This document shows positions 2-12,573 of a stretch of 12,809 nt of DNA, piece after piece. This stretch comes from Bacillota bacterium (GTDB lineage Bacteria > Bacillota_G > Limnochordia > DTU010): positions 1 through 12,809 of the forward strand of contig JAAZLQ010000363.1 of the NCBI GenBank assembly GCA_012799255.1, written 5' to 3'. Position 1 is the first letter of the stretch. Every line of letters begins with the position of its first letter. The translations under genes were made by a program, and so were the position numbers. The notes under the pieces are model-generated. The model made no database searches. It saw nothing but the letters and a program-made list of their open reading frames with translations, and was not told the DNA's origin.

Positions 2-2371
2 GAAAGAACGCTACAGGTGTTAGACTATGCTATCTTAGTGATTAGCGGTGCAGATGGAGTACAAGGACACACCGCTACACTTTGGCGGTTGCTTGCCATG
101 TACAAAGTGCCTGTGTTTTTGTTCATTAATAAGATGGATCAGCCTGGAACAAACGAAGAGGCGCTTCTAAAGGAACTCCAGCAACAATTGGATCTTGGCT
201 GTACCAAGTTTGGAACTGAGCAGACGGAGCAGTTTTTTGAACAACTGGCTCTCTGCCACGAAACTCTGATGGACACTTACTTTGAAACGGGCAAGATCGA
301 GCATGAGCAAATCCAGCTGGCTATCCAGAGTCGGAAAGTGTTCCCTTGTTATTTTGGTTCCGCTTTGAAATTGATCGGTGTGGAAGAATTCTTGCAGGGG
401 TTGGTTCATTACACGCAGACTCCGGTTTTCCCAGCAGAGTTTGGCGCTAAAGTATTTAAGATCTCTAGAGATGACCAGGGGAACAGACTGACCCATCTTA
501 AAATTACTGGTGGAACCCTTAAGGTTAGGGATGCAGTGAGTAATGGTCAGTGGGAAGAAAAGGTGAATCAGATTCGCCTATATTCCGGTGAGAAATACGA
601 GTTAGTTGATGAACTGCCTGCAGGCTCCGTCTGCGCTGTGTTAGGACTCAGTCAGACTAAGCCTGGTGAGGGCTTAGGTTTCGAGGGAGGGTCGCCTCCT
701 CCAGTTTTAGAACCTGTCCTTTCTTACCGAGTACTTCTTCCTGAGGGTTGTGATCCACGGGAAATGCTCCCTAAACTACGTGAGTTAGAGGAAGAAGAAC
801 CAGAGCTACGCGTTGTGTGGGAAGAGCAGTTGCAGGAGATCCAGGTTCAGATTATGGGAGAAGTTCAAATCGAGATTCTGCAGAGACTTATCCAAAGAAG
901 GTTTGGAGTGGAAGTTCAGTTTGATGCAGGTAGGATTCTTTATAAAGAAACGATTGCGCACAAAGTGGAAGGTGTGGGTCATTTTGAACCTTTGCGACAT
1001 TATGCAGAAGTCCATCTCTTGCTCGAGCCTCTGGAACGGGGAAGTGGGCTCCAGTTCGCTTTAGAATGTAGTGAGGACATTTTGGCGAAAAACTGGCAAC
1101 GTCTAATTCTTTCTCACCTCCAAGAGAAGACTCACAAGGGTGTTCTGACTGGTTCTCCCATTACGGATCTGAAAATTACCGTGGTTTCGGGGCGGGCCCA
1201 TAAGACTCATACAGAAGGCGGCGACTTTAGGGAAGCAACCTATCGTGCAGTACGGCAGGGGTTAAAAGAGGCGGAATCCATCTTGCTTGAGCCTTACTAC
1301 TCTTTTCGTCTGGAGGTCCCAGAAAAAGTGGTGGGCAGGGCTATGACAGATATTGAGAAAATGCAGGGAAGTTGGGAAATAGCTGAGACTACAGCTTCTG
1401 GAGTAGTTTTGGTTGGTACTGCTCCAGCCGTGAACATGCGCAACTACCACCAAGACGTTATCGCGTACACAAAAGGAGAGGGGCGGCTGTTTCTCACACT
1501 TGCAGGTTACCAACCTTGTCATAATGCTGAGGAGGTTATCGAGTCCCTTGGTTACGATTCGGAACGGGACTTGGACAACCCCACGGGCTCGGTATTTTGT
1601 GCTGGTGGCACTGGCTTTTACGTCAAATGGGATCAGGTCAAGGATTACATGCATGTGGAAAGTGTATTGCCGAAGGAACGTGTGGAAGAGCGAGCAGTCC
1701 GCACTTTCGCCCCTGACTATGTTGACCTGGACTATACTTACCTTAACACAACTGCTAACCAGGGCAAGAGGTACGGTTGGAATCGGCGGAGCGAAGTTCC
1801 AGAGGGGTCTAGTGAAATCCGTCCTGTAAAGCCTATTGTGGAAGATGCTCGGGAAGAATACCTGCTAGTTGATGGGTACAATGTGATCTATGCTTGGCCA
1901 GAACTGAAGGAGATTGCTGAGGAAAACATGGATGGTGCCCGCACAAAGCTACTTGACATTCTTTCCAGTTTCCAGGGCGTTAAGAACTGCCAGGTAATAG
2001 TTGTTTTTGATGCTTATCGGGTGCAAGGGCGTTATCTAGAAGAAATTATTGACTATCATAATGTTCATGTGGTGTTTACTAAAGAAGCCCAAACCGCCGA
2101 TCAGTATATCGAGAAATTCGCTCACGCTCATCAGAAAAAATATAAGATTACAGTGGCCACTTCTGATGGCTTGCAGCAGGTGATTATTCGCGGAGCTGGA
2201 AGTGCCCTTTTATCAGCCAGGGAGCTACGGGAAGAGGTTCAGATCGCTCTTGAATTCGCACACAAATCTTTTCTTCAGACACAGGGCAAGACCCGTACTG
2301 TCCTCCAAGAGGGGTTGACTGCTGAAGTGAAGGAGCAGATGGAAGGGCTTCGGCGGGATCAAAAGAAGTAA
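2..2371 (+). CDS. Ribosomal-protection GTPase (EF-G/Tet(M)-like) fused to a C-terminal NYN/YacP nuclease domain, 5'-partial
   Basis: The reading frame is open to the window edge and the G1 and DTPGH motifs are missing, so the start lies upstream; about 90 residues are lost if it resembles Tet(M). Residues are counted from the GTG at 17. Seen: end of the G domain with NKMD (38-41) and FGSAL (113-117), EF-G domains II to V (about 143-505; domain IV carries HTEGGDFREATYRAVRQGL near 398), an NPTGSVFC segment, a linker, then an NYN/PIN-like domain (about 613-755). That domain keeps four acidic positions: D619 in VDGYN, D665 in FDAYR, D695 in TADQYIE and D717 in TSD. Family knowledge: Tet(M)/EF-G relatives bind at the ribosomal A site; YacP/Rae1 is a ribosome-associated endoribonuclease. 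The combined role is inferred. Tetracycline resistance cannot be claimed. It probably shares an operon with the alkD-like gene. Confidence 0.9.
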   Translation, partial: ERTLQVLDYAILVISGADGVQGHTATLWRLLAMYKVPVFLFINKMDQPGTNEEALLKELQQQLDLGCTKFGTEQTEQFFEQLALCHETLMDTYFETGKIEHEQIQLAIQSRKVFPCYFGSALKLIGVEEFLQGLVHYTQTPVFPAEFGAKVFKISRDDQGNRLTHLKITGGTLKVRDAVSNGQWEEKVNQIRLYSGEKYELVDELPAGSVCAVLGLSQTKPGEGLGFEGGSPPPVLEPVLSYRVLLPEGCDPREMLPKLRELEEEEPELRVVWEEQLQEIQVQIMGEVQIEILQRLIQRRFGVEVQFDAGRILYKETIAHKVEGVGHFEPLRHYAEVHLLLEPLERGSGLQFALECSEDILAKNWQRLILSHLQEKTHKGVLTGSPITDLKITVVSGRAHKTHTEGGDFREATYRAVRQGLKEAESILLEPYYSFRLEVPEKVVGRAMTDIEKMQGSWEIAETTASGVVLVGTAPAVNMRNYHQDVIAYTKGEGRLFLTLAGYQPCHNAEEVIESLGYDSERDLDNPTGSVFCAGGTGFYVKWDQVKDYMHVESVLPKERVEERAVRTFAPDYVDLDYTYLNTTANQGKRYGWNRRSEVPEGSSEIRPVKPIVEDAREEYLLVDGYNVIYAWPELKEIAEENMDGARTKLLDILSSFQGVKNCQVIVVFDAYRVQGRYLEEIIDYHNVHVVFTKEAQTADQYIEKFAHAHQKKYKITVATSDGLQQVIIRGAGSALLSARELREEVQIALEFAHKSFLQTQGKTRTVLQEGLTAEVKEQMEGLRRDQKK

Positions 2372-2390
2372 CTTGGTAAAGGGGTATACC

Positions 2391-3104
2391 ATGGGTATAA
2401 TTGCTGAGATCAAACAGGAACTAGACAAGCATCGTGATCCTGAAAAAGCGGCCTTTTTCCCTAGGTTTTTCCAAGCAGGGCCGGGAGGCTATGCAGAAGG
2501 GGATCAGTTTATCGGGGTGACAGTACCAGTTCAGCGCAGAATAGCAAAACAGTTCTACCGAGAAATCTCTCTGGAAGAACTCCAGGTGCTTCTTGGGGAC
2601 CCAATTCATGAGTGCCGCCTAACAGCCCTATTGATGCTGGTTAACAAGTATCAGCGGACAAAAACTGAGACCGAGAGGAAAGTTCTTGTTGAGTTTTATT
2701 TGGCTAATACCGTCTTTATCAACAACTGGGATTTGGTAGACACCTCGGCAGATAAGATTCTCGGAGCTTACTTGTTCGAAAAAGAACGCGACCTGCTGTT
2801 TGAACTTGCGCAATCAGGAGATCTATGGCAGCAAAGGATAGCGATTATTGCCACCTTCTATTTCATTCGTCAGGGTGACTTCCAAGATACATTGCACCTT
2901 GCTAAACTTCTTCTCCACCATGAACACCACTTGATTCACAAAGCGGTGGGCTGGATGCTACGGGAAGTTGGGAATAGAGACTTTCAAGTGGAATACGATT
3001 TCTTAAAGGAGCACTATCAAGAAATGCCCCGCACAATGCTCCGCTATGCCATTGAAAAGTTTAACCCCGTGCTCAGGCAGGACTTTTTAAAGGGCCGGAT
3101 TTAA
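2391..3104 (+). CDS. DNA alkylation repair protein, AlkD-type HEAT-repeat glycosylase
   Basis: 237-residue all-helical protein of the AlkD family, which excises bulky or cationic alkylated bases such as N3- and N7-alkylpurines. The expected active-site pattern is present: W113 and D117 in NNWDLVD match the Trp and Asp that sit four residues apart in Bacillus cereus AlkD, and W188 in KAVGWMLREVG matches its third key aromatic residue. Length is normal for the family. An in-frame TTG exists at 2373, but the ATG at 2391 is preferred because GGGG at 2381-2384 lies 6 nt before it. It begins 19 nt after the upstream GTPase-NYN gene, so the two are probably co-transcribed. Confidence 0.93.
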   Translation: MGIIAEIKQELDKHRDPEKAAFFPRFFQAGPGGYAEGDQFIGVTVPVQRRIAKQFYREISLEELQVLLGDPIHECRLTALLMLVNKYQRTKTETERKVLVEFYLANTVFINNWDLVDTSADKILGAYLFEKERDLLFELAQSGDLWQQRIAIIATFYFIRQGDFQDTLHLAKLLLHHEHHLIHKAVGWMLREVGNRDFQVEYDFLKEHYQEMPRTMLRYAIEKFNPVLRQDFLKGRI

Positions 3105-3614: not shown

Positions 3615-3818
3615 TTACTTGACCAATCGAACGTAACAGATTTTTCCGCATTGAATTATAGTTAGCTCAAAGCGCGGATCCAATTCTTCCACTTCTAGAA
3701 AGGTTTCCCCGAATGCTCGGAGAATGCCCGTAATCTCTCCGCACTTAGTGTCCACCAAGACACGCCGATCAAGTAGGGGCACTAAACCTTCTGGACATTG
3801 ACAGCAATCACAGCTCAT
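3615..3818 (-). CDS. Small Cys-rich protein with a DUF2642-like (Sm-like) domain
   Basis: 67-residue protein: a cysteine cluster at the N-terminus (C3, C5, C6, C8), then a beta-rich domain from about residue 16 to the end. The domain closely parallels the C-terminal 55 residues of the LysM protein just upstream (CGxxxGxL, then II-C-xx-IC-VR), so the two look like tandem relatives. The fold resembles small Sm-like DUF2642 proteins of Bacillus spores, but that assignment is tentative. The frame is open upstream to 3899; the ATG at 3818 is chosen because AGGAGGGG precedes it by 8 nt. It overlaps the LysM gene by 11 nt, which suggests translational coupling. A spore-surface role is inferred from context. 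Confidence 0.75.
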   Translation of the reverse strand: MSCDCCQCPEGLVPLLDRRVLVDTKCGEITGILRAFGETFLEVEELDPRFELTIIQCGKICYVRLVK

Positions 3819-4260
3819 CAGTGTTTCCCCTCCTATAGATTCGGACAAAGCAGATTTCTTTGCACCGAATAATAATAGGGTGGTTTGTTTTGTGTTCATT
3901 CAAGGTGATTGAGTTATCGCCAACAAAGACAAGGTTTCCAGAGACGACACCACAGGGAGTTGCAACTTGCACAGAGCGACCAATGAACTCAGTGAGTGTG
4001 ATCGGACAGGGGCATTTGTCACGAGGTGGTGGCGGAGGTGGTGGAGGTGGCATTTTTTGTGGTACGCAGAGAACATCACCTGGGAAGATTAGGCTCGGAT
4101 TAGGAATATGTGGATTAGCCGCTATAAGAGCGTCTAGCGAGACCCCAAAGCGCTGTGCAATAAAGAACATGGTGTCACCTTGAACAACCGTATATCTACC
4201 CGTAAAACCTGGCGGGCAATAGGTTGGAACCCGTGGGTAACTGGGGTGACCGGAATACAT
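3808..4260 (-). CDS. LysM-domain protein with polyproline linker and DUF2642-like C-terminal domain
   Basis: 150 residues. A LysM domain spans about 22-67 (YTVVQGDTMFFIAQRFGVSL start, ending GDVLCVP); a run of nine prolines fills 71-79; a C-terminal domain (about 92-142) resembles the whole downstream protein. LysM binds peptidoglycan and chitin-like glycans and is used by spore-cortex and coat proteins such as SafA. There is no signal peptide, which fits a protein made in the mother cell and deposited on the forespore (inference). The start is set by GGAGG 9 nt before the ATG. The nine consecutive prolines probably require EF-P for translation. Confidence 0.85.
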   Translation of the reverse strand: MYSGHPSYPRVPTYCPPGFTGRYTVVQGDTMFFIAQRFGVSLDALIAANPHIPNPSLIFPGDVLCVPQKMPPPPPPPPPRDKCPCPITLTEFIGRSVQVATPCGVVSGNLVFVGDNSITLNEHKTNHPIIIRCKEICFVRIYRRGNTDEL

Positions 4261-10271: not shown

Positions 10272-10464
10272 ATTCACCCCAAATTTGGTTCCCCCGCTAT
10301 CAAATACGTAATTCGGAGATGTTACTTATATTATATCTCATTTCCCCTAAAACGCAAGTGCTATTTGAAGTATTATGTATGTATCTTCAAAAAGGCCAAA
10401 CCCTTCTGCCAACGTATATAAATATATAGTTTACACTGGGCATATTGCCTTGTCAATACTAAAT
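10272..10464. other. AT-rich intergenic stretch without a convincing gene
   Basis: Together with the leader to its left, this belongs to a gap of about 410 bp without a gene (10117-10530). On the minus strand it holds TATAAT (10335-10330) with a weak TTGCGT 16 nt upstream, the likely start of the leader RNA. CCAAATTTGG is a short palindrome near 10279-10288. TTTGAAG and CTTCAAA, 14 nt apart near 10369-10396, can form a loose hairpin. No supported ORF is seen. Confidence 0.5.
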
Positions 10465-10493
10465 TTGAGTTTTTATCTATCTTGTGTTATGAT
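10465..10493 (+). promoter_or_regulatory. Sigma-A-type promoter for the Tudor-like/coiled-coil gene
   Basis: TTGAGT (10465-10470), a 17-bp spacer, then TATGAT (10488-10493) with an extended -10 TG at 10485-10486. Predicted start is near 10500, about 30 nt before the ATG at 10531. Confidence 0.75.
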
Positions 10494-10530
10494 AGAAATG
10501 AACGTAATTACAAGATGTGGAGGCACACCA

Positions 10531-11388
10531 ATGAATCTAGAAAATGTGCAGGTAGTGCACAAGAGTTTTGGGGAAGGTAGCGTGGTTGAACATAACGGCT
10601 CATACGTAGAAGTGTGTTTTCCATGTGGAAATAAGCGATTTGTTTACCCTGATGCTTTCGGAACCTTTTTGAAGGTTGCTGACCCCCAAATTGCTCAGCG
10701 GGTTGATGACATTCGGGAAGAATTGGAAAAGGAACGGCGAGAAAAGGAGTTGGCGGAGGCGGAAATCAGGGCTGAGGAAGAGGAAAGACGGCAACTGCTC
10801 TTGGAAAGGGAGAGGCTGATTAAGTCCCATAAATTATCTCCAGCATCGCAGGCTGTCTTTTGGTGTGACGAGGAGGAGCAAGACAGGGTGTTCACTGAGT
10901 GGACAGTCTTTACCGGGCTAAGACAGAGTGGAGTTAACCAAGGACAACCCAATCGCCTCGTACGTCTCCATCACAATAGTGCATGTCTGATTACTAGCCG
11001 GGAAGATGATGTATCTGAATCGGAACGGCGAATTCTAGGTCTGTTTATGGTGGAGCCATCCTTTGTTGGCAGTCTGTGCGAAGATGGCTATATACCAGCC
11101 CATCCCAAGTTCAGAATGCGTTTTTCGGATGAAGAGTCAAGAAGGCTGCTGTTCTGGAATTATTATGTCAACGAACGCTATCCAAATAACATGACTTGGA
11201 ATAGCGGCAGACACCGGTATTTCGATAATGTGTGGATGGCTCAGATTCTAAAGGATGTTCTTGAGCTGAAACAAGGAACGGAAGAACAAAAGTTAGCAGA
11301 GGAACTTCTGGCTTACTTTTGCAACTTGAATCTTCTGGATTCAGCTAATCTATCAAAACCAAATGGTGCATTAGCTCGCAATGCTTAA
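10531..11388 (+). CDS. Protein of unknown function: Tudor/SH3-like N-terminus, coiled coil, conserved C-terminal domain
   Basis: 285 residues. Residues 6-48 (VVHKSFGEGSVVEHNG, then a strand-rich part ending KRFVYPDAF) resemble the small Tudor/SH3-like module found at the C-terminus of PcrA/UvrD helicases and in several Firmicute proteins. A highly charged coiled coil spans about 55-98. The C-terminal domain (about 110-265) has GLRQSGVNQGQPNRLVRLH, RRILGLFMVEPSFVG, AHPKFRMRF, LFWNYYVNE and RYFDNVWMAQILKD. I have seen similar C-termini in uncharacterised Firmicute proteins but know no function; a PUA/EVE-like fold is only a guess. GGAGG 7 nt before 10531 sets the start; the frame extends upstream through the promoter. 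It is a single-gene unit with its own promoter and terminator. Confidence 0.8.
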   Translation: MNLENVQVVHKSFGEGSVVEHNGSYVEVCFPCGNKRFVYPDAFGTFLKVADPQIAQRVDDIREELEKERREKELAEAEIRAEEEERRQLLLERERLIKSHKLSPASQAVFWCDEEEQDRVFTEWTVFTGLRQSGVNQGQPNRLVRLHHNSACLITSREDDVSESERRILGLFMVEPSFVGSLCEDGYIPAHPKFRMRFSDEESRRLLFWNYYVNERYPNNMTWNSGRHRYFDNVWMAQILKDVLELKQGTEEQKLAEELLAYFCNLNLLDSANLSKPNGALARNA

Positions 11389-11553: not shown

Positions 11554-12573
11554 ATGAGACGGTTTGTTCCGCAACGCGTGTTCTTTGAACCAACAGCACT
11601 TTCCTATCCCTTAGGCCAGCAGCTTGAAGAGAAGTTCAAAAATATGGGGATACCAATTGAGTTTACCACATCCCATAATCGGGTTACGGGAATTCCGGGT
11701 AATACTGCAAGGGAGAAATATGTGCAGGCCAAGCGCAGTCTGGTTGTGGGGGTGCGTCGCACCCTAAGGTTCGCCCCGTGCAAGCCGTCGGCGCACTACC
11801 AACTCCCCTTAGTAACCAGTTGTCCCGGTCTCTGTGAATATTGCTATTTACAGACCACCCTTGGACCAAAACCGATCAACCGAGTTTACGTCAATGTTGA
11901 GGAAATACTGGGCCAAGCAGAACAGAACATTAAGGATAGGGAACCGGAGATTACCGTCTTCGAAGGGGCAGCTACTTCTGATCCCATACCGGTTGAGTAC
12001 TTAACTGGCTCTCTAAGGCGGACCATTGAGTTTTTTGCAGGACAAGAGCTGGGACGTTTTCGGTTTGTTACCAAGTTCTCTGATATCGATTCACTTTTGG
12101 ATATAGTCCATAACAATCACACGGAGGTTCGTTTCTCCCTAAATACAGAAAGTGTCATTAATGAATATGAGAGAGGCACCGCTTCTGCTCAGGACCGGAT
12201 AAATGCGGCGAAAAAGATTGCTCAGGCGGGGTATCCATTGGGATTTCTTATTGCGCCAATTGTGATCTATCCAGAGTGGAAAAGGCAGTATGCTGAGCTA
12301 ATTAGCACCCTAAGGGACTCTCTTCCCGGGGGAGCTCGGCCCAAATTCGAGCTAATCACCCATCGGTTTACTGCACGAGCCAAAAAGAATATTGAAGCGG
12401 TGTTTCCTGGGTCAACGTTGCCCATGAATGAAGAAGAAAGGCAGTTTAAGTACGGACAATTTGGGTATGGCAAGTATGTTTATCCCAAAGATACTATGGA
12501 GGAGATTGAAGAGCTTTTCCGGCAAGAACTTGAGGTGCATTTCCCTGAGGTCGAAATAGCGTATCTAGTGTGA
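11554..12573 (+). CDS. splB: Spore photoproduct lyase (radical SAM)
   Basis: 339 residues, full length for the family. The enzyme uses a [4Fe-4S] cluster and S-adenosylmethionine to reverse the spore photoproduct (5-thyminyl-5,6-dihydrothymine) in DNA during germination. The cluster motif CxxxCxxC is C90, C94, C97 in SCPGLCEYCYL, with Y96 and Y98 as in Geobacillus SPL; the flanking family segment PCKPSAHYQLPLV is also present (C76). Oddity: in the FExAxTSD motif the position of the hydrogen-donor cysteine (C140 in Geobacillus, C141 in B. subtilis) is alanine, A140 in FEGAATSD. GAGAGGAG (11537-11544) lies 9 nt before the ATG. No splA-like gene precedes it. A sigma-G-like promoter and a terminator frame it as one unit. 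Confidence 0.95.
   Translation: MRRFVPQRVFFEPTALSYPLGQQLEEKFKNMGIPIEFTTSHNRVTGIPGNTAREKYVQAKRSLVVGVRRTLRFAPCKPSAHYQLPLVTSCPGLCEYCYLQTTLGPKPINRVYVNVEEILGQAEQNIKDREPEITVFEGAATSDPIPVEYLTGSLRRTIEFFAGQELGRFRFVTKFSDIDSLLDIVHNNHTEVRFSLNTESVINEYERGTASAQDRINAAKKIAQAGYPLGFLIAPIVIYPEWKRQYAELISTLRDSLPGGARPKFELITHRFTARAKKNIEAVFPGSTLPMNEEERQFKYGQFGYGKYVYPKDTMEEIEELFRQELEVHFPEVEIAYLV

Follow-up and report, generated by a model that had tools for sequence, protein, structure and literature searches.

What is the role of a gene that joins a GTPase of the ribosomal-protection type to an RNase of the Rae1/YacP type, and is it the tetracycline-resistance gene that its database names often imply? Such a gene lies at the left edge of the DNA stretch analysed here (hereafter the window: contig JAAZLQ010000363.1, 12,809 nucleotides, assembly GCA_012799255.1, from a Bacillota bacterium of the lineage DTU010). 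A preliminary description, made from the letters of the window, had proposed a combined ribosome rescue and mRNA decay factor rather than a tetracycline-resistance protein. Comparison across genomes adds that, in its carriers, the fused form appears to have replaced the Rae1 gene that normally stands alone. We consider it rather probable that the fusion is the lineage's only Rae1, targeted to the ribosome through a dedicated EF-G/Tet-like GTPase, the free gene having been lost after the joining.

The gene occupies positions 2..2371 of the forward strand as one open reading frame (ORF) of 789 residues, 5'-truncated and open at that end because the left edge of the window falls within it. A full-length relative of 874 residues (P0001), differing from the window protein at two residues, supplies the missing start; full-length relatives have a complete GTPase with motifs G1-G5. 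All features of the gene are on the forward strand. The C-terminal part of the G domain (5..418; Pfam GTP_EFTU PF00009, residues 2-139) is matched only from profile position 88, and the P-loop half is therefore missing from the window protein. There follow EF-G domains II (440..661; EF-G_D2 PF22042, residues 147-220), III (710..922; EFG_III PF14492, residues 237-307), IV (929..1273; EFG_IV PF03764, residues 310-424) and V (1283..1525; EFG_C PF00679, residues 428-508). Domains II-V had been recognised from the start; to these the part of the G domain inside the window has to be added. At the other end stands the NYN_YacP (Rae1-like) endoribonuclease domain (1862..2356; PF05991, residues 621-785), matched over profile positions 1-166 of 166 with 172.6 bits and an E-value of 8.8e-51 (cut-off 24.6 bits), and likewise by the Bacillus subtilis YacP/Rae1 structures 5mq9 (E 2.2e-25) and 5mq8 (E 4.4e-25). 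This domain series and the structural matches bear out the proposed GTPase-to-Rae1/YacP fusion. In a genome scan of the best 80 of 322 relatives both halves lie in one open frame at 80 of 80 loci, on which ground a chance or assembly artefact at the junction is rejected; the frameshift there that would have spoken against the fusion is not seen at these loci.

Both catalytic centres are intact. The four aspartates of the NYN domain are encoded at 1871-1873, 2009-2011, 2099-2101 and 2165-2167; given earlier as D619, D665, D695 and D717 counted from the GTG at 17, they are ORF residues 624, 670, 700 and 722 and D709, D755, D785 and D807 of the full-length relative. All four had been assigned correctly and are invariant in 96/96 fused rows (95 distinct, L139 and L160 being one gene), so that the loss of acidic residues in relatives, named as a possible refutation, is not seen among them; the same columns are kept in 35/35 free Rae1 proteins. 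On the GTPase side the same 96 rows show no variation at D13, G15, K16 and T17, in the DTPGH motif or at the N, K and D positions of NKxD.

The distribution of the two forms speaks for replacement. All 22 genomes picked for carrying the fusion have just one NYN_YacP match, which falls in a frame of 875-941 residues; in one of them (G014) the matched stretch extends past stop codons. An even draw of 243 genomes from the class of the Anaerocolumna genome G004 contained 161 with NYN_YacP over the cut-off, one copy each, in frames that were free (72; 160-216 residues), fused (84; at least 618 residues) or of 295-451 residues (5). Three further draws, counted by eye from tables, gave 12 fused, 95 free and one frame of 308 residues among 199 genomes of the phylum, 28 fused, 9 free and 2 ambiguous among 80 of the Desulfosporosinus class, and 26 fused, 3 broken, 1 ambiguous and no clear free copy among 72 of the class of L004, a near relative of the window; a second draw from the same phylum was left out of the counts. 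A fused and a free copy over the cut-off occur together in none of the 324 distinct NYN_YacP-bearing genomes of these four draws (14 genomes drawn twice having been subtracted); for the first draw, independence would predict both forms in 26.4 of the 243 genomes. Any p-value for this exclusivity would be too small because the genomes are related; fused and free states are both present inside each of two classes. To the earlier question whether such genomes also have a separate yacP the answer is that none of the fusion carriers sampled does. Apparent second copies in G142, G196 and G230 (21.3-21.5 bits, under the 24.6 cut-off, positions 3-49 only) were rejected, as were the two in G563, which are non-overlapping pieces on two contigs.

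The site of the free gene tells a similar story. Neighbours were identified by family model (rlmB, TIGR00186; sigH; cysS), and one gene beside free rae1 we take to be mrnC, though no family model matches it. In the free-Rae1 genomes rae1 follows rlmB in 13/13, at no more than 220 bp in 12 and at 3.0 kb in one, and sigH was located farther on in 12 of the 13. A free rae1 after rlmB is absent in all 37 fused genomes tested (38 less L231, with 49 bp of downstream sequence), in stretches past rlmB that measure about 0.8-1.5 kb for 30 genomes and reach 4.7 kb at most in two of the first 8. Among them, 18 have rlmB within 600 bp of sigH with no rae1 match between, and the other 19 have no sigH within 600 bp or anywhere in the stretch examined. 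G213 carries its fused gene downstream of rlmB, about 7 kb away.

The join has an anatomy of its own. An AlphaFold model built from 108 rows (mean predicted local distance difference test, pLDDT, 87.3; predicted template modelling score 0.69) replaced a first one from 30 rows (mean pLDDT 59), which was discarded; it displays a GTPase of five domains whose C-terminal extension is folded, then a disordered segment at 647-698 and an NYN body standing apart. The extension (1520..1657; CHNxEEVI..GYD..SVFC..G.GF.V.W..V..YMH), delimited by alignment and model, is common to the unfused sister GTPases and was not seen in the Tet(M), Tet(O) and Tet(W) compared. After it comes the linker (1658..1852), largely predicted to be disordered (pLDDT <50 at residues 647-698 of the full-length relative), which measures 64-124 residues across fusions and is poorly conserved but for one motif, approximately EEIDxIIxxTxxANxxKK with W and basic residues after it (E in 90/96, I in 91/96, T in 84/96); linker comparison places it at 1730..1789 in the window, in the degenerate form DYTYLNTTANQGKRYGWNRR of the window's sub-group. 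A regular expression for the motif, composed after the sequences had been inspected, matches 75/96 linkers (74/95 distinct); shuffled linkers give 0.95 matches on average and never more than 5/96. The nuclease end is altered as well: the match to the Rae1 profile attains position 158 in 71/72 free proteins and falls short of it in 50/83 fused ones, a count that leaves out G093 (contig end) and 5 broken frames. R166P, a B. subtilis rae1 change recovered among suppressors that lose Rae1 function according to an excerpt of PMC6613710, falls in this tail when placed by the 5mq9 alignment with the chain numbering of 5mq9 taken as native.

Trees and similarity searches speak to the origin of the fusion. 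With 5 candidates scored per genome and matches of E 1e-90 or better kept, GTPase matches of at least 52% identity occur only in NYN_YacP genomes, 80 fused in one frame and 4 with the NYN frame broken; the 52% line was set after the fact, just above an unfused match in G200 (51%). Under this line the matches are unfused proteins of about 645-755 residues and a few divergent fusions (G023, G143, G212, G220), and more unfused relatives bear names of Bacillus-type genera and Clostridium. The divergent fused gene L198 of G212 is broken by an in-frame TAG, as a pseudogene or through an assembly error. In the GTPase tree all 40 fused rows group in one clade with a single unfused plasmid protein of Ligilactobacillus salivarius (97/97), next to which 13 unfused sisters stand with weak support (85/47), while Tet(M), Tet(O) and Tet(W) are set apart with two more distant unfused rows. 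A strict single clade of fusions was not recovered, the unfused L. salivarius copy being nested, and fused monophyly is not rejected (approximately unbiased test, p-AU 0.361). That copy (L201:3001-4920) is a 639-residue GTPase of about 51% identity over fused residues 1-638. It groups next to a long-branch row (87/73) and is flanked on both sides by transposase genes; it was possibly transferred and is possibly a form without its NYN domain. In the NYN tree 35/37 fused rows and one free row (G231) form a clade (100/100), and the long-branch fused rows L194 and L195 are placed elsewhere, so that the fusion may have more than one origin. The nested free NYN of G231 (L207:6786-7307) has no recognised rlmB-like gene beside it, its neighbours being judged by ORF positions only, and is probably a later release of the domain, a fission product. 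Desulfosporosinus rows lie among rows of other Clostridia in the GTPase tree, a placement that suggests the fusion may have been transferred horizontally. Among 72,556 plasmid records, 2 cover at least 80% of the fused protein (Monoglobus, 518 kb; Agathobacter, 252 kb); among 50,697 phage records, 2 match (MT835563.1 and MT835514.1, faecal 'Bacteriophage sp.', 94% and 97% of the protein), both unverified and perhaps bacterial contigs filed as phage.

How might such a protein work? The free Rae1 of B. subtilis is reported to cleave mRNA in a translation-dependent manner, with a proposed entry into the A site (available text of PMC6613710 and PMC10632193); candidate targets are the S1025 and bmrCD transcripts (PMC10632193). 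In the fusion, the GTPase body would bind the factor site of paused or stalled ribosomes with an accessible A site and thereby partly stand in for free Rae1 in recruitment. Hydrolysis of GTP would free domain IV from the decoding site and the linker with its conserved helix-plus-basic motif would hold the nuclease nearby, which would let the NYN domain move into the vacated A site and cleave the mRNA; both the order of these steps and the location of the cut are conjectural, and a full clear-then-cut cycle by one protein strikes us as possible but doubtful.

Several observations weigh against the fusion being a ribosome-targeted, sole Rae1. Domain IV and the NYN domain can hardly share one decoding site; the cut would therefore have to come after domain IV leaves, or be made in trans, on a neighbouring ribosome or elsewhere on the mRNA. 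The function of NYN_YacP is dispensable, because 82/243 genomes of the Anaerocolumna class are without the domain over the cut-off. The fused forms make up almost a single clade, so that independent replacements may be few, and the exclusive distribution of fused and free forms is confounded because carriers share ancestry. The fused halves can part, since the L. salivarius GTPase and the G231 NYN occur split. Finally, in the window itself the linker motif of its sub-group goes unmatched by the expression, and its own protein retains the LRR tail.

Of the other explanations, the one closest to current annotation holds that the fusion is an intrinsic tetracycline ribosomal protection protein to which an RNase was added as a further means of resistance. 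Similar fusions are indeed often named Tet in databases, as had been anticipated, Tet is the best-scoring NCBIfam family for the fusion, and a resistance role was proposed in a 2015 survey (PMC4342817, in the part available). The scores, nonetheless, are 292 bits for the window and 420 for the full-length relative against a cut-off of 775 (NF012153), just as the EF-G model TIGR00484 gives 209.6 and 313.2 against 659.4, and the fused GTPase is only about 30% identical to Tet(M), Tet(O) and Tet(W). By alignment, the tip of domain IV (1190..1231) reads GRAHKTHTEGGDFR, in general form GRAHxKHTEGGDFR, where Tet(M), Tet(O) and Tet(W) carry GLYYSPVSTPADFR; absent from the fusion is YSPV with the drug-site proline, Pro-509 of TetM lying in the drug site according to an excerpt of PMC8161019. 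The unfused sister family, though, has the same tip, likewise without YSPV, and in B. toyonensis a TetM-like gene of the chromosome (1944 nt) confers resistance, as knockout and expression in B. subtilis indicate (PMC5209696, in the portion seen). The length of that gene is compatible with the sister family, to which its product possibly belongs; no B. cereus-group names were recognised among the best 120 relatives. Because the sister family shares the tip and this protein, possibly one of its members, protects, a Tet role is disfavoured and no more. Against it also stand the replacement of a translation-linked nuclease by the fused gene and a best-conserved neighbour family that recurs in just 9/81 loci. 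Taken together, the explanation by resistance appears unlikely, and the earlier wording 'rather than a tetracycline-resistance protein' stands as far as the replacement of free Rae1, the Tet cut-off and the missing Tet(M) tip go, and is tempered by the B. toyonensis gene.

Two further explanations keep the nuclease in view and change its task or its tie to the GTPase. If the fusion served rRNA/tRNA maturation or ribosome assembly, its GTPase would dock on maturing subunits and the NYN domain would trim precursor RNA. The presumed mrnC beside free rae1 would suit this. So would the adjacent rlmB, a 23S rRNA methyltransferase gene (excerpt of PMC6613710), and the original proposal of the domain for rRNA and tRNA maturation (as quoted in the text seen of PMC4342817); since the B. 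subtilis work, in the parts available, indicates translation-dependent mRNA cleavage by Rae1, such a role looks quite unlikely. A loose fusion, in which a translocase-like accessory GTPase and a Rae1 without targeting work independently and are joined for co-expression only, would account for a disordered linker of variable length and for the split forms, yet it sits badly with a linker motif that shuffled sequences hardly ever match, with the shortening of the Rae1 tail in most fusions and with close GTPase relatives that are almost only fused, and we hold it to be quite improbable.

The neighbourhood of the gene adds little to this picture. No conserved operon surrounds the fusion, a candidate rejected since no neighbour family is widely kept, and the 13 neighbour families found most widely around 80 relatives include none to which a gene of the window belongs. 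A DNA alkylation repair gene (2373-3104; PF08713) follows the fusion directly, in the same orientation. A LysM protein resembling SafA (3808-4260; 57.8 bits, below the cut-off of 67.85) and a spore photoproduct lyase (11554-12573, over its cut-off) are also encoded in the window, and because of these two the host is probably a spore former; an ORF of 337 residues (10375-11388) has no Pfam or NCBIfam match.

A 2018 paper by Condon reportedly deals with the distribution of Rae1, to judge by its title, and priority on the distribution finding is uncertain. The fusion itself is already in print, reported in ten clostridial species as Tet plus a YacP-like NYN with a suggested resistance role (Atkinson 2015, PMC4342817, as far as the text seen goes); what is added here is the evidence on the replacement of free Rae1, on the tail and on Tet. 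The window shares the EF-G/Tet-then-NYN order of that report, an assignment by architecture and not by comparison with the paper's sequences, and the fusion is encountered here in all three class draws as the only Rae1. As had been supposed, no functional study of the fusion, and no other paper on it, was recognised among the matches listed in a literature search, sources being seen in part. B. subtilis Rae1/YacP has the same domain, the same catalytic aspartate positions and one copy per genome in the draws, but is a free protein without a GTPase, with a conserved LRR tail and a gene between rlmB and sigH in the genomes tested. Tet(M), Tet(O) and Tet(W) are likewise EF-G-like five-domain GTPases, and in a fold search, whose listed matches concern residues 1-627, TetM 3j9y aligns over model residues 1-629; besides identity and tip, they differ in having no such extension, linker or nuclease. 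The 13 unfused sisters of the tree (645-671 residues; Bacillaceae and Clostridia) have 43-51% identity and the same tip and extension; they terminate after the extension, without linker or NYN, and their relatives are often named 'translation factor GTPase family protein'.

The mode of Rae1 recruitment to ribosomes is not settled in the portions of the literature examined, and the fusion makes it directly testable, as the GTPase may substitute for part of Rae1; the linker motif is a short element that can be tested for ribosome or partner binding. It is tempting, though distinctly tentative, to suppose that free Rae1 has given way to a one-protein version in several classes of Bacillota, among them gut anaerobes whose genomes file that version as antibiotic resistance. 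The fusion also indicates that some genes annotated 'TetM/TetW/TetO/TetS family' in Lachnospiraceae, Desulfosporosinus and the like may encode a translation-linked nuclease, a point of consequence for surveys of resistomes.
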